From Parasphingopyxis lamellibrachiae (GTDB taxonomy: Bacteria; Pseudomonadota; Alphaproteobacteria; Sphingomonadales; Sphingomonadaceae): a stretch of DNA of 64,000 nucleotides. Under the pieces are notes generated by a model. It saw nothing but the letters and a program-made list of their open reading frames with translations, was not told the origin of the DNA and ran no database searches. Positions 4,175-45,954 of the stretch are shown here, piece after piece (positions within the stretch are counted from its first letter, which is position 1; each line of letters begins with the position of its first letter). The stretch spans positions 2,102,957 through 2,166,956 of the forward strand of contig NZ_QRDP01000004.1 in assembly GCF_003385775.1 (NCBI RefSeq), written 5' to 3'. The translations under genes were made by a program, and so were the position numbers.

Positions 4175-5080
4175 CTAAATTTTTTCACCGGAAAGCCGCT
4201 GGCAGATCAGGTCGAGTTGATCGAGCGAGCGATAGGCCACGCTCACCGTTCCCATCTTGCCATTATAGTCGATCGCGACCGCCAGGCCGATGGCTTCGCC
4301 AAGCTGGCGCTCAAGCGCAACGATATCCGCATCGCGTTCGCGCGGCGGCCTTTTCTGCTGCGTCGATCCGCCGGGTTTGGCGCGGCGGGCCAGATCTTCG
4401 GCTTCGCGAACCGAAAGCCCCTGTGCCGCAATCAGCCGGGCCAGGGCCTCGACATCCGGCGCGCCGATAATCGCCCGCGCATGCCCCATATCGAGTTCGC
4501 CCGACACGACCATGGCCCGCACGGCATCGGGCAGTTCAAGCAGGCGCAACAAATTGGTGACATGGCTGCGCGATTTGTGGACGAGGCGCGCAAGCGCGGC
4601 CTGGCTGTGGCCGAAATCCTCGATCAGCCTTTTATAAGCTTCGGCTTCCTCGATCGCGTTGAGGTCTTCACGCTGGATATTCTCGACGAGCGCGATTTCC
4701 AGTGTCTCCGCATCGTCGAAATCCCGAACGATTACAGGAACCTGGTGGAGATGTGCGCGCTGCGCCGCGCGCCAGCGCCGTTCGCCGGCGACAATCTGGT
4801 AACCCGCGCCTTGCGGCCGCACGACGATCGGCTGGATCATACCGCGCACTTCGATCGAGTTTGCAAGCTCGCTCAGCGCGTCCTCGTCGAAATGGCGGCG
4901 CGGCTGGTCCGGATGGGGCGCGATCTTGCCGACCGGCAGCATCTGCACTGCCCCCTCATCCGGCGCGGCGCTGACCGACGCCTCCTGCTCGACCTCTCCC
5001 ATCAGCGCAGAAAGACCTCGACCGAGCCCGCTGGGCTTCTTGCGCGCGGGCGTTTTTTTCTCTGCTTTTCCGTTGCTCAT
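4175..5080 (-). CDS. parB: Chromosome partitioning protein ParB
   Basis: ParB is the CTP-dependent clamp that loads at parS, spreads on DNA and moves the origin region together with ParA. I chose the ATG at 5080, which gives 301 aa; an open extension upstream would run into parA. The N-terminus has the LGRGLSAL motif (about residues 19-26) that contacts ParA. The CTP-binding motif GERRWRAA is at 99-106, ENIQREDL at 133-140, and the parS-binding helix-turn-helix at about 158-180. The C-terminal dimerisation domain is complete. Its targets, two parS sites, lie 1.4 and 3.4 kb upstream. Confidence 0.97.
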   Translation of the reverse strand: MSNGKAEKKTPARKKPSGLGRGLSALMGEVEQEASVSAAPDEGAVQMLPVGKIAPHPDQPRRHFDEDALSELANSIEVRGMIQPIVVRPQGAGYQIVAGERRWRAAQRAHLHQVPVIVRDFDDAETLEIALVENIQREDLNAIEEAEAYKRLIEDFGHSQAALARLVHKSRSHVTNLLRLLELPDAVRAMVVSGELDMGHARAIIGAPDVEALARLIAAQGLSVREAEDLARRAKPGGSTQQKRPPRERDADIVALERQLGEAIGLAVAIDYNGKMGTVSVAYRSLDQLDLICQRLSGEKI

Positions 5081-5091
5081 ATCCGTCTCTC

Positions 5092-5874
5092 TCAGGCCGC
5101 TCGCGCTTTTTTGGGCAGCCGGGCGATGGTTTCGCGCGCGAGCGCCATATAGGCTTCCGATCCCGGGCATCGATAATCGTAGATGAGCGCCGGTAGGCCG
5201 TGGCTGGGTGCTTCCGAAAGCCGCACATTGCGCGGAATCACCGTCTTGAACACCAGCTTGCCGAGCACCGCCCGGACATCTTCGGCAACCTGGCCGGAAA
5301 GATTGTTCCGCTTGTCATACATGGTCAGCACGACGCCAAAGATCGAAATATCGGGATTGAATCGTTCACGGACACGCTCAACAGTCTGTAAAAGCTGGCT
5401 TAATCCTTCCAGCGCGAAAAATTCGCATTGCAGCGGCACGAGCAGGGATGGAGCCGCGACCAGGGCGTTGATCGTCAGCAGGCCCAGAGAGGGCGGACAA
5501 TCGATCAGGCAGACGTCCCACCGGCCGGTCGGTGCGCCGGACAATGCCATGTTGAGCCGTTCGGTCCGCGCTTCATAGTCAACAAGTTCTATCTCGGCGC
5601 CCGACAGATCGACGGTGGCGGCGACGACATCGAGCCTCGGCACGCGCGACGCGATCGCCGCCTCTTCCACAGTTGCATCGCCAGTGAGCAGGTCGTAACT
5701 CGAAAGCGTGCGTTGATCGTGCCGGATTCCAAGTCCTGTAGAGGCATTGCCCTGGGGATCGAGATCAAGCAGCAAAACCTTCCAACCCGAGGCCGCCAGC
5801 GCAGTCGCAAGGTTTATGGCCGTCGTCGTTTTGCCAACACCACCTTTTTGGTTGGCAATCGCGATGCGGATCAT
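5092..5874 (-). CDS. parA: Chromosome partitioning ATPase ParA
   Basis: ParA is a deviant Walker ATPase that binds DNA nonspecifically and forms the gradient along which ParB-bound origins move. The deviant Walker A motif KGGVGKTTT is at residues 10-18. The Walker B-like LIDCPPSLGLL and the ParA signature DLDPQGNAS are clear. The length, 260 aa, is typical of chromosomal ParA. The start overlaps the rsmG stop by 4 bases, and parB follows after 11 bases, so parA and parB are probably cotranscribed with rsmG. Confidence 0.98.
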   Translation of the reverse strand: MIRIAIANQKGGVGKTTTAINLATALAASGWKVLLLDLDPQGNASTGLGIRHDQRTLSSYDLLTGDATVEEAAIASRVPRLDVVAATVDLSGAEIELVDYEARTERLNMALSGAPTGRWDVCLIDCPPSLGLLTINALVAAPSLLVPLQCEFFALEGLSQLLQTVERVRERFNPDISIFGVVLTMYDKRNNLSGQVAEDVRAVLGKLVFKTVIPRNVRLSEAPSHGLPALIYDYRCPGSEAYMALARETIARLPKKARAA

Positions 5875-6509
5875 GAACCTCTCCTTGGCCTCACATTGCG
5901 CGCGTCGATGATGAAAGCCTCGTCATTTGTCAGACTCGCATGCAGCGCGAAATCACCCTGCCATGTTCGTCGCGCCTCTGCCAGTTCTTCTTGCGCGCTT
6001 TTCCCTTTTGGCAGCAGCCATTGCGCTTCGGTACCGGCAAACCGATGTGCAAGAGAAAAAAGCTTTGGCAATGCGGTAAAGGCCCGGGCCGCAATCACGT
6101 CAAAAACACCGGCTTCGACGCGTTCGACCTTGCGACCTTCTATATGGACCCGCTCGCCAAGGCCGAGCTGCTCATGCGCCCTTTGCAGGAATTCGACCCG
6201 GCGCGACCGGACCTCAACCAGGGTCATGTCCATTGCGCCGATAATTGCCAATACCATTCCGGGCAGGCCCGGGCCGGAGCCCAGATCGATCCATCGGCCG
6301 CCTCGTGCGGCTGGCGTAGCCAGCGATAGGAGTTGGGCAGAATCGCGTATATGCCGGTCCCAGAAACTGTCGATCGTCGATCGCGAGATCAAATTCTGGC
6401 GCGTGGCTTCCTCCAGAAGTAGTGCTGAAAATTTTTCCAGCCGCTCCAATGTTTCACGTGAAACATCCAGCTCTTCGACAAGCCAGGTCTTTACTGCAGC
6501 CTCTTCCAT
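5871..6509 (-). CDS. rsmG: 16S rRNA (guanine527-N7)-methyltransferase
   Basis: RsmG (GidB) methylates G527 of 16S rRNA. The start at 6509 (MEEAAVKTW) gives 212 aa and leaves a 4-base gap to the mnmG stop; the longer frame to 6554 would overlap mnmG. The SAM-binding motif IDLGSGPGLPG is clear. The codons for the DVSRET segment near the N-terminus contain a perfect parS site, so this stretch serves both as protein code and as a ParB landing site. It belongs to a minus-strand run with mnmG, parA and parB. Confidence 0.96.
   Translation of the reverse strand: MEEAAVKTWLVEELDVSRETLERLEKFSALLLEEATRQNLISRSTIDSFWDRHIRDSAQLLSLATPAARGGRWIDLGSGPGLPGMVLAIIGAMDMTLVEVRSRRVEFLQRAHEQLGLGERVHIEGRKVERVEAGVFDVIAARAFTALPKLFSLAHRFAGTEAQWLLPKGKSAQEELAEARRTWQGDFALHASLTNDEAFIIDARNVRPRRGS
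6450..6465. promoter_or_regulatory. parS centromere site 1
   Basis: The sequence TGTTTCACGTGAAACA is a perfect 16-base palindrome and an exact match to the ParB-binding consensus. It lies inside rsmG, about 1.4 kb from parB and about 10 kb from the oriC candidate. That position, within a coding region near the origin, is usual for alphaproteobacterial parS. Confidence 0.95.
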
Positions 6510-8425: not shown

Positions 8426-8441
8426 TGTTTCACGTGGAACG
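8426..8441. promoter_or_regulatory. parS-like site 2
   Basis: TGTTTCACGTGGAACG matches the parS consensus TGTTNCACGTGNAACA except at the last base. It keeps the CACGTG core and lies in the 58-base gap between mnmE and mnmG. It is 2.0 kb from the perfect site in rsmG. One mismatch at an outer base usually weakens but does not abolish ParB binding. Confidence 0.8.
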
Positions 8442-15538: not shown

Positions 15539-16576
15539 TCAGCCCTTGCGCAGCCGCGCCAGCAAATGCTCGACATGAGCGATCGGGGTATCGGGCAGGA
15601 TTCCATGGCCGAGATTGAACACATGCGGCCGCTCGGCGAAAGCCTTTTCTATCCGGTCGATAGCGCTGTCGAGGCGATCACCGCCGGCAATCAGCGCCAG
15701 CGGATCGAGATTGCCCTGCACCGGCAAATCCACCGGCAGCGTTTCCGCCGCCCATTCGGGGTCGATCGTCTCGTCCAGCCCCAGCGCATCGACCCCGGTT
15801 TCGCGCGCATAGGCCGGCAGCTTTTCGCCCGCGCCTTTGGGAAAACCGATGACCGGCGTATCGGGGTAGCGGGCCTTGAGCGCGCTGACGATCTTCACCG
15901 TCGGCGCGATCACCCATTGCTCGAACTGGGCGGGAGACAGGCTGCCGGACCAGCTGTCGAACAGCTGCACGGCATCGACACCTGCATCGATCTGTTTGCC
16001 GAGATATTCGATCGTCTTGCCCGCGATCGCATCGATAATCGCGCCAAAGGCTTGCGGATCGCCATAGGCCATGCGGCGCGTTTCGCTCTGGTCCCGGCTC
16101 CCCTGTCCGGCAACCATGTAAGTCGCAACGGTCCAGGGGCTTCCAGCAAAGCCCAGAAAGGTGGTGCCAGGCGGCAAGGCGGCGGCAACCAGCTCAACGG
16201 TCCGGTACACCGGGTCGAGCCGCTCTGGCGCGGCTTCAAGCGCGCCGAGCGCACTATCGACAAGCGGAGGCGAAAGCCGCGGGCCTTCCCCGGCAACGAA
16301 ACGCAGATCCTGACCAAGCGCATGGGGAACGACCAGGATATCGGAAAACAGGATTGCGCCGTCGAAGCCGAACCGCCGGATCGGCTGGAGAGTCACATCC
16401 GCGGCGGCTTCGCTGTCATGGACGAGATCGAGGAACCCGCCCTTTTCGGCGCGCAGCTCCCGATATTCGGGAAGGTAGCGCCCGGCCTGGCGCATCAGCC
16501 AGACGGGAGGCGGATCCCTTCGCTCGCCGCGCAGCACGCTCAGCAGTTTCTTCTCATTCTGTCCGGAATTCGACAC
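15539..16576 (-). CDS. hemE: Uroporphyrinogen decarboxylase
   Basis: HemE decarboxylates uroporphyrinogen III to coproporphyrinogen III in heme synthesis. The 345-aa product shows the family signature near the N-terminus (VWLMRQAGRYLPEYRELR) and the second signature GFAGSPWTVATYM. The start is GTG at 16576. In Caulobacter crescentus the chromosome origin lies next to hemE, and the non-coding stretch upstream of this gene is the best oriC candidate in the window. Confidence 0.98.
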   Translation of the reverse strand: MSNSGQNEKKLLSVLRGERRDPPPVWLMRQAGRYLPEYRELRAEKGGFLDLVHDSEAAADVTLQPIRRFGFDGAILFSDILVVPHALGQDLRFVAGEGPRLSPPLVDSALGALEAAPERLDPVYRTVELVAAALPPGTTFLGFAGSPWTVATYMVAGQGSRDQSETRRMAYGDPQAFGAIIDAIAGKTIEYLGKQIDAGVDAVQLFDSWSGSLSPAQFEQWVIAPTVKIVSALKARYPDTPVIGFPKGAGEKLPAYARETGVDALGLDETIDPEWAAETLPVDLPVQGNLDPLALIAGGDRLDSAIDRIEKAFAERPHVFNLGHGILPDTPIAHVEHLLARLRKG

Positions 16577-16628
16577 GTCGCTATGCCCTACTATTACTAT
16601 ATATACTTATATAATTATAAGATTGATG

Positions 16629-16802
16629 GAGTCAGTTGCAGGCTTGGTAACGGGGCTTAATCGCTTTAGCCGCTTACGCCAACAGCTTGACTCAGGAATG
16701 AATCATGGCCGCACCCGGAGTCGATTCCGTTATCCCGGTAATTCACAGCCTGTGTGCGAATTCCATTCCCTGTGGAAGAGTTTCGGGATCGAATATCGAG
16801 TC
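16629..16802. promoter_or_regulatory. Cluster of six GANTC (CcrM) methylation sites
   Basis: GANTC occurs at 16629, 16689, 16700, 16718, 16723 and 16798, two of them abutting. CcrM methylates this sequence in Alphaproteobacteria and ties its methylation state to the cell cycle. By chance one site would be expected per few hundred bases, so six in 174 bases is a marked excess. It supports the origin call. Confidence 0.85.
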
Positions 16803-16862
16803 ATGGGTGTGGTTTGATGGCTTGCCTCTATCCCGACAGTTCAGCTAGCGCCGTCATCAGGC

Positions 16863-16871
16863 TTTTCCACA
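16863..16871 (+). promoter_or_regulatory. DnaA box
   Basis: TTTTCCACA fits the relaxed DnaA-box consensus TTWTNCACA exactly. It lies in the non-coding region near the ppsR end of the oriC candidate, 52 bases before the ppsR start. Confidence 0.65.
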
Positions 16872-16922
16872 GGCTTGTACGTCCAGGTTTGGTCGTCTCG
16901 GCCTCCGTCATACAGGCACCCC

Positions 16923-17771
16923 ATGATCCGGCTTCATCTCCATCTCATATCGGACTCTACCGGCGAGACACTGGAAAATATTGCCAAGGCGGGATTGGCC
17001 CAGTTCGACGATGTCGAGACGATAAAGCATTTCTGGCCGATGGTCCGCAGCGAAGGCCATGTCGACCGGGTGTTCGACGATATCGGCAAACAGCCGGGTC
17101 TGGTTCTCTATACGCTTGTCGACCACAATGTCCGGCGGCGGTTGGAAACGCGGTGTCGGGCCATGGGGCTGCCGGCCGTATCCGCGCTCGACCCGGTTAT
17201 CGACGCGCTGTCGCGCCTGCTCGGGATGGAAGCGAAGGAACGGCCGGGCGGGCAACATCTGCTTGATGCGGCCTATTTCCAGCGGGTAGAGGCGATCCAG
17301 TATACGATTGCCCATGATGACGGCGTCGCGCCGGACGACTGGGACCGCGCCGATATCGTGCTGGCCGGCGTATCGCGAACATCGAAGACGCCGACCAGCA
17401 TCTATCTGGCCAATCGCGGCTACAAGGTCGCCAATGTGCCGCTTGTGCCGGAATCGCCGCCGCCCGACACATTATATCGCCTGAAAAATCCGATCATTGT
17501 CGGGCTGACCACAAGTCCCGACCGGCTTGTCCAGGTGCGCCGCAACCGCCTGCTCAGCCTCAATCAGACCCCAGAAACGGACTATGTGGATCAGGACCGG
17601 GTCAAGGCAGAGGTCGCCTTTGCCCGCCGCATCTTTGCCGATAATGACTGGCCGGTGATCGACGTGACGCGCCGCTCGATCGAGGAAAGCGCAGCCGCCA
17701 TCCTCAATATCGTGACCGCGCACGCCAAAAAGGCTGACGATGAGAGTGGGGAGCCGGCGCCATCAGACTGA
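16923..17771 (+). CDS. ppsR: Pyruvate, phosphate/water dikinase regulatory protein (kinase/phosphorylase)
   Basis: This DUF299-family bifunctional enzyme phosphorylates and dephosphorylates pyruvate dikinase-type enzymes, using ADP and Pi. The ATG at 16923 gives 282 aa, typical for the family; a TTG at 16875 would only add residues translated from the origin region. The N-terminus LHLISDSTGETLENIA and the nucleotide-binding loop GVSRTSKTPTSIYLA are signature sequences. It is the first gene to the right of the origin candidate, the same place as Caulobacter CC_0001. The target dikinase is not in the window. Confidence 0.95.
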   Translation: MIRLHLHLISDSTGETLENIAKAGLAQFDDVETIKHFWPMVRSEGHVDRVFDDIGKQPGLVLYTLVDHNVRRRLETRCRAMGLPAVSALDPVIDALSRLLGMEAKERPGGQHLLDAAYFQRVEAIQYTIAHDDGVAPDDWDRADIVLAGVSRTSKTPTSIYLANRGYKVANVPLVPESPPPDTLYRLKNPIIVGLTTSPDRLVQVRRNRLLSLNQTPETDYVDQDRVKAEVAFARRIFADNDWPVIDVTRRSIEESAAAILNIVTAHAKKADDESGEPAPSD

Positions 17772-18355
17772 TCCTTGCCTCGCAAAGCAGCACCCGCCGG
17801 GCCATGCTCGATGCGGCGGCCGTGCCTTTTGAAGCCATCGCTGCTGGCGTCGATGAGGAATTGGCCAAAGCTTCGCTTTGCGCGGGCGGAATCTCTCCGC
17901 GCAACCTTGCCGATGCGCTGGCCGAGCTGAAGGCCGTAAAACTGTCGCGCCGTTTCCCCGATGCGCTGATACTCGGTTGCGATCAGGTGGCCTCGCTTGG
18001 TGACAGGCTATTCGACAAGGCTGCAACGCGCGAAGAGGCCGAGTCCCATCTTCGGGTGCTGCGCGGGGAAACCCACAGCCAGACGAGCGCGGCTGTGATC
18101 TGCGAGGCGGGCAAGCCGGTCTGGCGTCATATAGATGTCGCGAAACTTGCCATGCGAGATTTCTCCGATGCGTTCCTGACCGGCTATCTGGATGCCGAAT
18201 GGCCGGCCATCGGCGGCTGCGCCGGCGGTTACCGGCTCGAAGGCCGCGGTGCGCAGCTTTTCACGCGAATCGATGGCAGCCATTTCACGATACTCGGCCT
18301 GCCGCTGCTGCCGCTTCTCGATTATCTGCGGACCCGCGGGGTGATGGGGCAATGA
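17762..18355 (+). CDS. maf: Maf family nucleotide pyrophosphatase (non-canonical start)
   Basis: Maf proteins hydrolyse nucleoside triphosphates, often modified or non-canonical ones. The conserved N-terminal loop LILASQSSTRR lies upstream of the first ATG (17804), and no ATG, GTG or TTG exists in frame between it and the upstream stop at 17741. I place the start at ATC 17762, which aligns with the usual initiator (x-RLILASQS) and sits 8 bases after GGGGAG. A CTG at 17768 that overlaps the ppsR stop (CTGA) is the alternative. The product would be 197 aa. The DQVASL motif with its catalytic Asp is present. ATGA overlaps aroE. Confidence 0.85.
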   Translation: MRLILASQSSTRRAMLDAAAVPFEAIAAGVDEELAKASLCAGGISPRNLADALAELKAVKLSRRFPDALILGCDQVASLGDRLFDKAATREEAESHLRVLRGETHSQTSAAVICEAGKPVWRHIDVAKLAMRDFSDAFLTGYLDAEWPAIGGCAGGYRLEGRGAQLFTRIDGSHFTILGLPLLPLLDYLRTRGVMGQ

Positions 18356-19161
18356 CCAGACCATATGCCGAGGTGATTGGCGATCCTATCGCCCATTCGA
18401 AATCCCCGCTCATTCATAATTTCTGGCTTGAAAGACTGGGTATCGACGGCACCTACCGGACGGCACATGTAACGCCGGACGGCCTTGCAGCCTATTTCGA
18501 GAGCCGGCGGACAGACACCGCCTGGCGGGGGTGCAACATTACGATTCCGCACAAGGAAACTGCGCTCGATCATGTCGAGGATCGCGGCGATCTGCGAACG
18601 AGTATCGGCGCCATCAACACCGTGCTCAGCGAAGATGGTGCGCTTATCGGCACGAACACCGATGCCGCCGGTTTCTATGCTCCGATTTCCGGTCTGGATC
18701 TCGAAGGCGCCGATGTTGCGGTGGTCGGGGCAGGCGGGGCCGCCCGGGCTGTGCTCTTCGCGCTAAAGCGGGTGGGCGTTGCCAATGTGGCGCTGCTCAA
18801 TCGCACGCCGATCAAGGGTGCCGGCTTGCTCGCCAGTTTTGGGGTGAAGGGCGATGCCCTGCCGCTCGATGCGCCGCTCCCGCCCGTCGAACTCCTGGTC
18901 AACGCCAGCCCGCTTGGCATGACAGGGCAGCCGCCGCTGACGCTTGACCTCGATCCGCTGCCCGAAGATGCGGTTGTCTATGATCTTGTCTATGCGCCGC
19001 TCGAAACCGGGTTGCTTGCTGCGGCTCGGGAAAGAGAGCTGGCCACGGTCGACGGGCTCGAGATGCTGATCGGCCAGGCGGCGATTGCGTTCGAACTTTT
19101 CTTCGGCCAGCCCGCGCCGCGTGACCGGGATGCCGAACTGAAGGAGATACTGCTCGGATGA
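18352..19161 (+). CDS. aroE: Shikimate dehydrogenase
   Basis: AroE reduces 3-dehydroshikimate to shikimate with NADPH in aromatic amino acid synthesis. The start ATG at 18352 overlaps the maf stop (ATGA) and gives 269 aa. The substrate-binding motif GDPIAHSKSPLIHN, the catalytic lysine in NITIPHKE, and the NADPH-binding VVGAGGAARAV and LLNRT are all clear. coaE follows with another ATGA overlap, so the row ppsR-maf-aroE-coaE-dnaQ is tightly coupled. Confidence 0.97.
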   Translation: MTRPYAEVIGDPIAHSKSPLIHNFWLERLGIDGTYRTAHVTPDGLAAYFESRRTDTAWRGCNITIPHKETALDHVEDRGDLRTSIGAINTVLSEDGALIGTNTDAAGFYAPISGLDLEGADVAVVGAGGAARAVLFALKRVGVANVALLNRTPIKGAGLLASFGVKGDALPLDAPLPPVELLVNASPLGMTGQPPLTLDLDPLPEDAVVYDLVYAPLETGLLAAARERELATVDGLEMLIGQAAIAFELFFGQPAPRDRDAELKEILLG

Positions 19162-19772
19162 AATTGCTGGGACTCACCGGATCCATCGGCATGGGAAAGT
19201 CGACCGTCGCCGCAATGTTCGCGGCCGAGGGTGTACCGGTATTCGATGCGGATGCCGAAGTGCACCGGTTGCAGGGGCCGGGCGGTGAACTGGTTGCGGC
19301 GATCGAAGAGCTGTTTCCCGGTACCACCGGCGCCGATGGCGTCGATCGCGCGAAACTCTCCCGGGCCGTGCTGGGGGATCGCGCGAAACTGGCCGCACTG
19401 GAGGAGCTGATCCATCCGGCGGTCGGGCTCAACCGCGCGGCCTTTCTCGAAGAGCATTGCGATGCGCCGATTGTGCTGTTCGATATTCCCCTGCTCTATG
19501 AGAAAACCGGCGACGCCGGGCTCGACGCTGTCATCGTCGTATCGGCGCCGCCCGAAGTGCAGCGCGAACGCGTGCTTAAGCGGCCCGGCATGACGGCGGA
19601 GAAATTCGACCATATTCTGGCTCTCCAGCTCCCCGATGCCGAAAAACGGGCCCGCGCGGATTTCATCATCGACACCGGGACTCCGCTGGAAGCAACCCGG
19701 GCACAGGTTGACGCACTCGTCACTTGCTTACGGGAGCATGACGTCCGATATTGCCAACAATGCGTGAAATAG
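19158..19772 (+). CDS. coaE: Dephospho-CoA kinase
   Basis: CoaE phosphorylates the ribose 3'-OH of dephospho-CoA, the last step of coenzyme A synthesis. The 204-aa product begins [16 protein letters not shown] with the P-loop at residues 8-16. The DADAEVHRL motif and FDIPLLYE are typical. It overlaps aroE by 4 bases upstream and dnaQ by 13 bases downstream. Confidence 0.97.
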
Positions 19773-20464
19773 TTTTCGATACGGAAACCACCGGCCTTAG
19801 CCCCAAAGACGGGGATCGACTGGTGGAAATTGGCGCGCTTGAAATGGTCAACCGGGTCGAGACCGGACGCAGCTTCCATATTTATTGCAATCCCGAGCGC
19901 GAGATGCCGAGCGAGGCCTTTGCCGTGCACGGGCTTTCCGACGCTTTTCTGGCCAACAAGCCGCTCTTTTCGGCAGAGGTCGGGAATTTCCTGGAATTTA
20001 TTGGAGACAGTCCGCTGGTTGCGCATAATGCGCAGTTCGATTTCGGCTTTATCAATGCCGAGCTCGATCGCTGCGGCCATCAGTTCATCGCGATGGACCG
20101 GATGATCGATACGCTGGCAATAGCGCGCACCAAGCATCCGGGCGCGAAGCACAGCCTGGATGCGCTGTGTTCGCGCTATGGTATAGATCGCAGCCAGCGG
20201 GTTTTGCATGGCGCGTTGCTCGATGCACAGCTTCTTGCCCAGGTTTATGTCGAGCTGACCGGCGGTCGGCAGATCGGGCTGGTGCTGGCGGAAGAGGAAC
20301 AGGCTGCCACGCCTGCCGATTTGCGGACGGCGGAAGCCAGGCCGCAGCCGCGCCGTCCGGTTCGCGAGCCTCGCCCGCATGCCGCTTCGGCGGAAGAGCG
20401 CGCGCGCCATGCCGCATTTGTTTCGCAGCTCACCGATCCGCTTTGGCCGGCTGAGTCGCAATAG
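19760..20464 (+). CDS. dnaQ: DNA polymerase III epsilon subunit (proofreading exonuclease)
   Basis: DnaQ is the 3'-5' proofreading exonuclease of the replicative polymerase. I chose the ATG at 19760 ([12 protein letters not shown]), 234 aa; a TTG at 19751 is also in frame. The DEDDh residues are visible: DTETTG (Exo I), HNAQFDFG (Exo II) and the HGALLDAQ segment (Exo III). The C-terminal tail (residues about 190-234) is proline- and arginine-rich and ends in SQLTDPLW, which fits the alpha-subunit-binding segment. Confidence 0.96.
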
Positions 20465-44922: not shown

Positions 44923-45118
44923 TTTGATCGTTCAAGAAAGGCTTTTCGACCGCTCTTGATTCTGTGAGAGTCTTCGAAATGCCAAAAAACCGGATTCTAT
45001 CAATGACTTAAGGCGCAACCCCATGATTCATAACAGAGGATCTTGATCCAGATAGCCAATTTGACTATATAGATGGTAATTCGGCTTCGGTCGAAGGGAG
45101 ATCGTAATTTGCGATCGC

Positions 45119-45140
45119 GCGGGGGCTTATAGGCCCCCGC
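45119..45140. terminator. GC-rich hairpin between metW and the DUF3800 gene
   Basis: An 8-bp perfect stem (GCGGGGGC/GCCCCCGC) with a 6-base loop lies 8 bases beyond the DUF3800 stop. Neither side has a strong T run, so termination would be weak. The rest of the gap 44923-45118 is AT-richer than its surroundings and has no other feature I can name. Confidence 0.5.
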
Positions 45141-45147
45141 ACACTTT

Positions 45148-45954
45148 TCAGGGCAACCATTTTGTCCCGTAGCCGGAAATCACGCCGCTGTTTGGATTCC
45201 GATCATACCAGTAGCGGCGAAGTAGACCTACGAGATAGGTTCCATGATCCGGTCCGATTGCCTCTCCAAGCTGCTCAAACTTGAGCGAGCGATGACAGGG
45301 ATGCGCCAGGAGATCTGCAATCTGAAGTCCCGCTATGTTTTTCTCTTTTGGCAGCAATCGTAGATCTTTTGAAGTCAGGCGAGCTTGTATCATTTGGGAA
45401 TCTACCATCCCGGTTTTATGTTTGTAAAAGTAGGTAAATGCCCGACGCAACTGCTTGTCGTGTCTGGGATTGCGCGCTTCGCCTAGCATGTCGCCTTGGA
45501 AGTTATTTCTCCGCAACCACAATACAAATCGTTCCAACAGGCATTCAAGCAGATAATGATAGGGGCTGTAGCGCCAGACTTTATATCGCTGTTTATGTTC
45601 AAGTTTATCGATTGAAATCGTGAAGGCAGCGATCAGACACTCAGCTATGATCGAAGACATTCGCCAGTCGAACTCCTGTCGCCGCTCCACGTTTCGGAGA
45701 GCCACGAAATCGCCTTCGCTCCTCATAATATCTCTTCGATGCAAGACTACTTCTTGCGCTCCGAAAATATCCTCTTTGAGCCTGTTCATCCGGCGGGTCA
45801 GATAGCCGTCATGGGTGTCTTGTTTCACGACGACACCCGTGATGCTCAGATAGCGTTCGTTTGGGTGCTTCTCCGCCGCATCTAAATCACCGTTGCCGGT
45901 CTCATCGAAATAGAGACGATAACGACTGGTTGGAGGCACAAAGTTCATGTCCAA
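45148..45954 (-). CDS. DUF3800 domain protein (accessory gene)
   Basis: The 268-aa product starts with the DUF3800 motif YRLYFDETGNG, an RNase H-like fold motif, and has DLLAHPCHRS near the C-terminus. The family is found near toxin and defence genes but its role is unproven. Base composition of the gene and of its flanks (44923-46030) is visibly lower in GC than neighbours, and codon use is atypical, which suggests horizontal transfer. It stands alone between metW and pheT. The start may be the second ATG at 45948. Confidence 0.88.
   Translation of the reverse strand: MDMNFVPPTSRYRLYFDETGNGDLDAAEKHPNERYLSITGVVVKQDTHDGYLTRRMNRLKEDIFGAQEVVLHRRDIMRSEGDFVALRNVERRQEFDWRMSSIIAECLIAAFTISIDKLEHKQRYKVWRYSPYHYLLECLLERFVLWLRRNNFQGDMLGEARNPRHDKQLRRAFTYFYKHKTGMVDSQMIQARLTSKDLRLLPKEKNIAGLQIADLLAHPCHRSLKFEQLGEAIGPDHGTYLVGLLRRYWYDRNPNSGVISGYGTKWLP

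Follow-up and report, generated by a model that had tools for sequence, protein, structure and literature searches.

Evidence for a GANTC-rich, hemE-type chromosomal replication origin in Parasphingopyxis lamellibrachiae

The hemE–ppsR gap as the predicted chromosome origin

The window analyzed here is a 64,000-nucleotide stretch of the Parasphingopyxis lamellibrachiae genome (C1:2102957-2166956; assembly of 2.95 Mb, contig C1 of 2.86 Mb). It contains a 346-bp intergenic gap (C1:2119533-2119878) between the minus-strand gene hemE, which extends to 16576, and the plus-strand gene ppsR, which begins at 16923. Sequence comparison indicates that this gap is almost certainly the replication origin (oriC) of the main chromosome. 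A preliminary description had proposed a probable oriC between these genes, and the proposal is supported by what we observe of its place in the chromosome (a skew switch in two genomes), the flanking gene pair and DnaA boxes conserved in the family, the lowest duplex stability in the window and a nearby parABS partition system. DnaA binding, the site of melting and firing are inferred from the sequence.

As the preliminary description anticipated, the GC-skew minimum coincides, on the samples taken, with the gap. Cumulative skew within the window reaches its minimum between 13 and 17 kb. Among 38 stretches sampled across the genome, two of which overlap by 5 kb, all 19 between 680 kb and the gap have negative skew. 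On the arm that leaves the gap, continues through 2.855 Mb and resumes up to 530 kb, 15/16 are positive. The single exception on the positive arm is the stretch 2515001-2535000 (skew -0.0053), and three near-zero stretches at 570-645 kb lie roughly opposite the gap. In a second genome of the genus, assembled as a single contig (G009), 11/12 samples are negative and 12/13 positive on either side of the hemE–ppsR gap. Furthermore, parS occurs genome-wide at two places when up to two mismatches are allowed, both of them in the window, 8-10 kb left of the gap and among mnmE, mnmG, rsmG, parA and parB; a reversed control pattern matches one place.

The AT-rich block that had been described at the hemE end of the gap is borne out as the segment of lowest duplex stability in the window. 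The 40-mer at 16588 has a summed nearest-neighbor energy of -36.5; the runner-up at a distance of over 300 bp has -45.6. By AT content, the 50-mer of the block shares third place with two others (0.78) among the non-overlapping 50-mers of 764 kb sampled from the same genome (a sample that counts 5 kb twice). The gap therefore holds an AT-rich and, by calculation, easily melted block.

Conservation was assessed in the family, which we take to be Sphingomonadaceae from the names seen among the relatives. For this family, 110 of the 114 loci found were fetched, and one (L138, no hemE in the flank) was dropped before counting, leaving 109 gaps. The comparison also drew on other families of the order (8 of the 16 places found, each with hemE) and on other orders of the class, for which 27 of the 77 places were retrieved and 25 entered the counts, L106 and L113 having no hemE in the flank. 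Three genomes (G212, G240 and G161; loci L211, L212 and L213) have hemE and no ppsR match, and a fourth (G162, 380 contigs) yielded neither gene; the three ppsR-less genomes have a fetched hemE locus, and two of these loci (L211 and L213) were examined.

The divergent hemE–ppsR pair surrounds the gap in 109 of the 110 family loci, and the AT-richest 40-mer lies no more than 80 bp from the hemE side in 104/109 gaps. The motif TCCACAG is found in 104/109 gaps against 3.4 expected from shuffles, and there are 89 exact TTWTNCACA sites where shuffles give 1.2. The case for an origin rests on this conservation more than on the number of boxes, since box conservation is strong in the family and the count in the window alone is weak. 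An alignment of nine genus members shows conservation of CCAACAGCTTGACTC (with variants), of GGAGTCG, of an ATTCACA-like block whose facing CTGTG is kept in 9/9 members, of CTTG with GCTAGC, and of TCCACA on the ppsR side. The one good and two weaker DnaA boxes of the preliminary description are present at 16863, 16739 and 16771 (Table 1).

Several observations weigh against the assignment of the gap as oriC. Skew was sampled over about one quarter of the genome rather than at every base. The DnaA boxes of the window exceed chance only modestly by number and alone are no proof of an origin: with mononucleotide shuffles as the reference, two boxes with at most one mismatch to TTATNCACA compare with 0.26 expected, and three with at most two mismatches compare with 2.7. 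No exact TTWTNCACA is present in 57/109 family gaps. The window has no match to a simplified basal-unwinding rule (a DnaA box, a spacer of up to 16 and at least three NAN trios), which we adapted from the relevant passages of PMC8287927. Finally, ppsR was not found in 2/24 family genomes (83% and 86% complete) or in 4/109 of a second search set.

Two candidate markers were set aside. Exact TTWTNCACA is uninformative genome-wide, with 60 sites (one in the gap) versus 44 for the reversed pattern. The basal-unwinding rule is satisfied towards hemE in 35/109 family gaps versus 11.8 in shuffles, and in the other direction in 16/109, making a DnaA-trio reading attractive in some genera; it does not hold in the window. 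Trio-like repeats run towards hemE past a DnaA box in the L020, L022, L097, L160 and L176 gaps, and the window lacks them.

The gene context identifies the type of origin. The gap lies between hemE (PF01208) and ppsR (PF03618), in agreement with the Caulobacter-like context that had been noted on both sides, and ppsR is presumably the COG1806 of the literature. According to the relevant passages of PMC1914354, hemE and COG1806 flank the Caulobacter origin, which contains five DnaA boxes, five CtrA sites and one IHF site, and the same pair is found at the Rickettsia origin. Those of PMC4741004 state that most Sphingomonadaceae have a DoriC-predicted origin near hemE and that the gaps of Sphingopyxis have putative DnaA boxes and a putative duplex-unwinding element (DUE) in common. 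Because the origins of Caulobacter, Rickettsia and Sphingomonadaceae are placed at hemE in these papers, the gap is a known kind of origin, namely the alphaproteobacterial hemE type that passages of PMC4741004 already predict for Sphingomonadaceae. The origin of Caulobacter crescentus (Cori) is alike in its flanking genes, its AT-rich gap with DnaA boxes and its several GANTC sites, as described in parts of PMC1914354 and PMC3973325, whereas the five CtrA sites reported there have no exact counterpart in the family gaps. The oriC that Ori-Finder predicts for Sphingopyxis granuli TFA is likewise near hemE, with conserved gene order, DnaA boxes and a putative DUE (PMC4741004, in part), although it belongs to another genus and is likened here by description rather than by box-by-box alignment.

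We propose that initiation would begin with DnaA binding to the conserved TCCACA boxes (at 16863, 16771 and the dyad 16744-16754). The DnaA complex would melt the AT block beside hemE, the helicase would be loaded and two forks would depart in opposite directions. ParB bound to the leftward parS sites would then separate the new origins.

GANTC sites and a possible control of initiation

A less ordinary property of the family gaps is that they are packed with GANTC, the target motif of CcrM, and lack exact CtrA sites. The gap in the window contains six GANTC sites, and the 346-bp segment densest in GANTC in the 764 kb sampled (seven sites, start 16629) overlaps the gap, with one site within ppsR. 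In the family, 543 GANTC sites (15.4 per kb) compare with 146 in dinucleotide shuffles, and 94/109 gaps have at least three. As a control, seven palindromes of equal composition range from 1.05 to 6.6 per kb in these gaps; the highest value belongs to AGNCT, which is also raised, we suppose because AGGCT/AGCCT stands beside the boxes. Intergenic stretches of the same genome, as delimited by a crude open reading frame (ORF) caller, have 3.2 GANTC per kb. In 30 family genomes, the region that precedes mnmE has 0.9 per kb (8 versus 30 expected, with at least three sites in 0/30); this control comprises the best-scoring 30 of 39 matched genomes and 300 bp upstream, perhaps partly coding. As a side observation, the stretch 44923-45147 of the window carries 4 GANTC in 225 bp and ranks second of 105 crude intergenic stretches in the sample of this genome.

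Outside the family, the excess is smaller in the 25 gaps of other orders (68 versus 42.5, mononucleotide shuffles), and the 8 gaps of other families in the order have 22 GANTC versus 11.3. A single locus, L031 (family f5), accounts for 13 of these 22, and the seven other gaps have 0-3. Of the GANTC columns in the genus, two persist in 8/9 and 9/9 members and the other 18 come and go; each gap has 5-9 sites. A fixed helical spacing of GANTC pairs was considered and is not claimed, as the peaks at 17 and 28 bp are inseparable from shared ancestry.

The genome encodes a candidate enzyme for these sites. A RAMA-domain protein is found in 38/40 genomes, this one included, the exceptions being G007 (83% complete) and G024 (99% complete), and among 14 controls the model matches in Caulobacter only. 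We take the RAMA domain to be a hallmark of CcrM, and the protein is on that basis a putative GANTC methylase, the target motif of which is enriched in the gap. GcrA is found in 40/40 genomes, again including this one, by a model of imperfect specificity that also matches Sulfolobus among the 14 controls. The CtrA sites expected of a Caulobacter-type CtrA-controlled origin are missing from the gap: exact TTAA-N7-TTAA occurs in 0/109 family gaps and in 4/25 gaps of other orders, and sites with at most one mismatch number 14 in the family gaps versus 8.7 in shuffles. The IHF consensus occurs in 2/109 family gaps only, as does TGATCCACA, which we take to be the G-box.

What might a dense GANTC array do at an origin without CtrA sites? 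If the CcrM-like enzyme methylates GANTC, the origin sites would become hemimethylated after each firing. The family origin may then be gated by CcrM, remaining hemimethylated until a late return of the enzyme and thereby delaying re-initiation, an idea that is suggested by sequence patterns and in our view rather unlikely. The packed putative methylation sites, some beside the AT-rich block, are reminiscent of the clustered GATC sites of the Escherichia coli oriC, which act with Dam and SeqA. The difference is that E. coli uses GATC and Dam, whereas GANTC and a RAMA-domain CcrM-like enzyme are found here; no search for SeqA was made. Passages of PMC3973325, citing Shaheen and colleagues, mention several GANTC sites in the Caulobacter origin and conclude that C. 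crescentus can control initiation without CcrM. A cell-cycle model assumes full origin methylation before re-firing (PMC2217572, in part), and in Agrobacterium methylation affects ori2 via repABC and gcrA expression, that is, via transcription (PMC11514494, in part). A strong GANTC rise around ori in four orders including Sphingomonadales, with chromosomes cut into 100 parts, is described in passages of PMC9836097. In the literature surveyed we met neither the GANTC density within the Sphingomonadaceae gap nor its coincidence with missing CtrA sites, which is no proof of absence. We advance the methylation gate as a hypothesis only, because the GANTC rise near ori is already in print and CcrM is unneeded for initiation control in Caulobacter; the family-wide sequence patterns support it, the Caulobacter negative stands against it, and we rate a promoter-based explanation higher.

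According to that explanation, which comes not far short of an even chance, the GANTC cluster is unrelated to replication and acts instead in the transcription of hemE, alone or together with ppsR, under GcrA/CcrM control. The presence of GcrA throughout the genomes fits such a role, as do the frequent sites at the hemE end, the expected place of the hemE promoter, and the second-most conserved GANTC, which lies in TTGACTC, by our own reading -35-like. However, the GANTC density of the gaps exceeds that of the intergenic and mnmE controls, and the sites shift place while each genus gap retains its number. The ppsR half of the explanation is further weakened by two ppsR-less genomes in which the excess persists. 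In G212 (L211), hemE and maf are divergent around the gap, with maf in the place of ppsR, and the 283-bp gap has 6 GANTC and 2 TCCACA. In G161 (L213), the 400 bp before hemE have 6 GANTC, 8 TCCACA and 7 exact TTWTNCACA. Both loci also count in favor of the oriC assignment, G212 by its divergent hemE–maf pair and G161 by its exact TTWTNCACA sites. Counted by deciles from hemE (gaps over 450 bp left out), GANTC sites number 91, 33, 24, 117, 109, 30, 57, 46, 14 and 6; therefore, the peak is the center of the gap and not decile 7, which holds the promoter-like pair of ppsR.

A more sweeping alternative, that the gap is merely a divergent hemE/ppsR promoter region, with boxes through which DnaA would regulate transcription, and that the origin lies elsewhere, for example at dnaA, is very improbable: it gains from the promoter-like pair before ppsR, conserved in the genus by our own reading, and from an exact TTTTCCACA at 290127, which precedes the matched dnaA domain by about 0.9 kb, but the sampled skew switches at the gap and parS lies near it. 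The dnaA gene is at C1:291037, about 1.1 Mb from the gap if the contigs close into one circle. Skew is positive at 165-185 kb, at 280-300 kb, where dnaA lies, and at 395-415 kb, and an origin at dnaA is rejected on the absence of a sign switch in these samples.

Neighboring genes and significance

The coordinates of the predicted origin, its elements and its neighbors are collected in Table 1. The hemE-side limit of the gap is uncertain by about 30 bp, the hemE start codon being unproven.

Table 1. Features of the predicted origin and its surroundings (window coordinates)
Feature	Position	Strand	Remark
Predicted oriC, hemE–ppsR intergenic gap	16577..16922		Skew switch and divergent pair in 109/110 family loci
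AT-rich block, putative DUE	16588..16627		Least stable 40-mer of window
GANTC (CcrM target motif) beside AT block	16629..16633		Same column in 6/9 genus members
GANTC in conserved block CCAACAGCTTGACTC	16689..16693		Same column in 8/9 genus members
GANTC	16700..16704		4/9 genus members
GANTC in conserved block GGAGTCG	16718..16722		9/9 genus members
GANTC	16723..16727		5/9 genus members
DnaA box-like TAATTCACA	16739..16747	+	Within inverted pair CACAG-C-CTGTG, 16744-16754
Weak DnaA box TCTTCCACA, 2 mismatches	16771..16779	-	CTGTG kept in 7/9 genus members
GANTC	16798..16802		Own column, 1/9 genus members
Promoter-like TTGCCT-17-CTAGCG, putative ppsR promoter within origin	16822..16850	+	Own reading of sequence and conserved columns CTTG, GCTAGC
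Best DnaA box TTTTCCACA	16863..16871	+	TCCACA here in 9/9 genus members
parB	4178..5080	-	PF02195, PF17762, PF23552
parA	5095..5874	-	PF13614, PF01656
Perfect parS	6450..6465		Sole perfect match in genome
parS-like, 2 mismatches	8426..8441		
hemE	15542..16576	-	PF01208
ppsR, kinase/pyrophosphorylase	16923..17768	+	PF03618
maf, aroE, coaE, dnaQ-like exonuclease, in this order	17780..20461	+	

The preliminary description also held that genes on both sides mostly face away from the origin, which is true near the gap and fails over the whole window. To the right of the gap, the plus strand carries ppsR, maf, aroE, coaE and the dnaQ-like gene; of the ten Pfam-matched proteins that follow, as far as 28.2 kb, 7 are plus and 3 minus. 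On the left, hemE is followed by a PF03653 gene, presumably hemJ, and then by rho and terC; these, together with mnmE, mnmG, rsmG, parA and parB, are on the minus strand, and leuS, lptE, an alkyltransferase gene and an aspartyl-protease gene are on the plus strand. Crude ORF calls over the whole window have no strand bias (left, 7 minus and 8 plus; right, 20 minus and 19 plus), from a caller that is visibly erroneous, for example in calling the antisense of hemE.

By ppsR similarity, Parasphingopyxis genomes are among the closest named (L216, 92%; L224, 89%) in the 80 of 452 confirmed stretches listed. A sigma-70 promoter scan of 16400-17100 returned none, and the window has no Rfam match at gathering scores. 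Elsewhere in the window, a low-GC gene with a DUF3800 domain (45148-45954, minus strand) lies in the only 1-kb bin below 50% GC and was possibly acquired.

Placing the origin at the hemE–ppsR gap on more than gene context sets the replication order and the map zero for a Parasphingopyxis-like genome. The family-wide packing of GANTC without CtrA sites offers a concrete case in which to ask whether CcrM methylation affects initiation in alphaproteobacteria beyond Caulobacter, for which PMC3973325 found the enzyme dispensable in this respect. If the CcrM gate were true, it would parallel Dam/SeqA control independently and would call for a reader protein.
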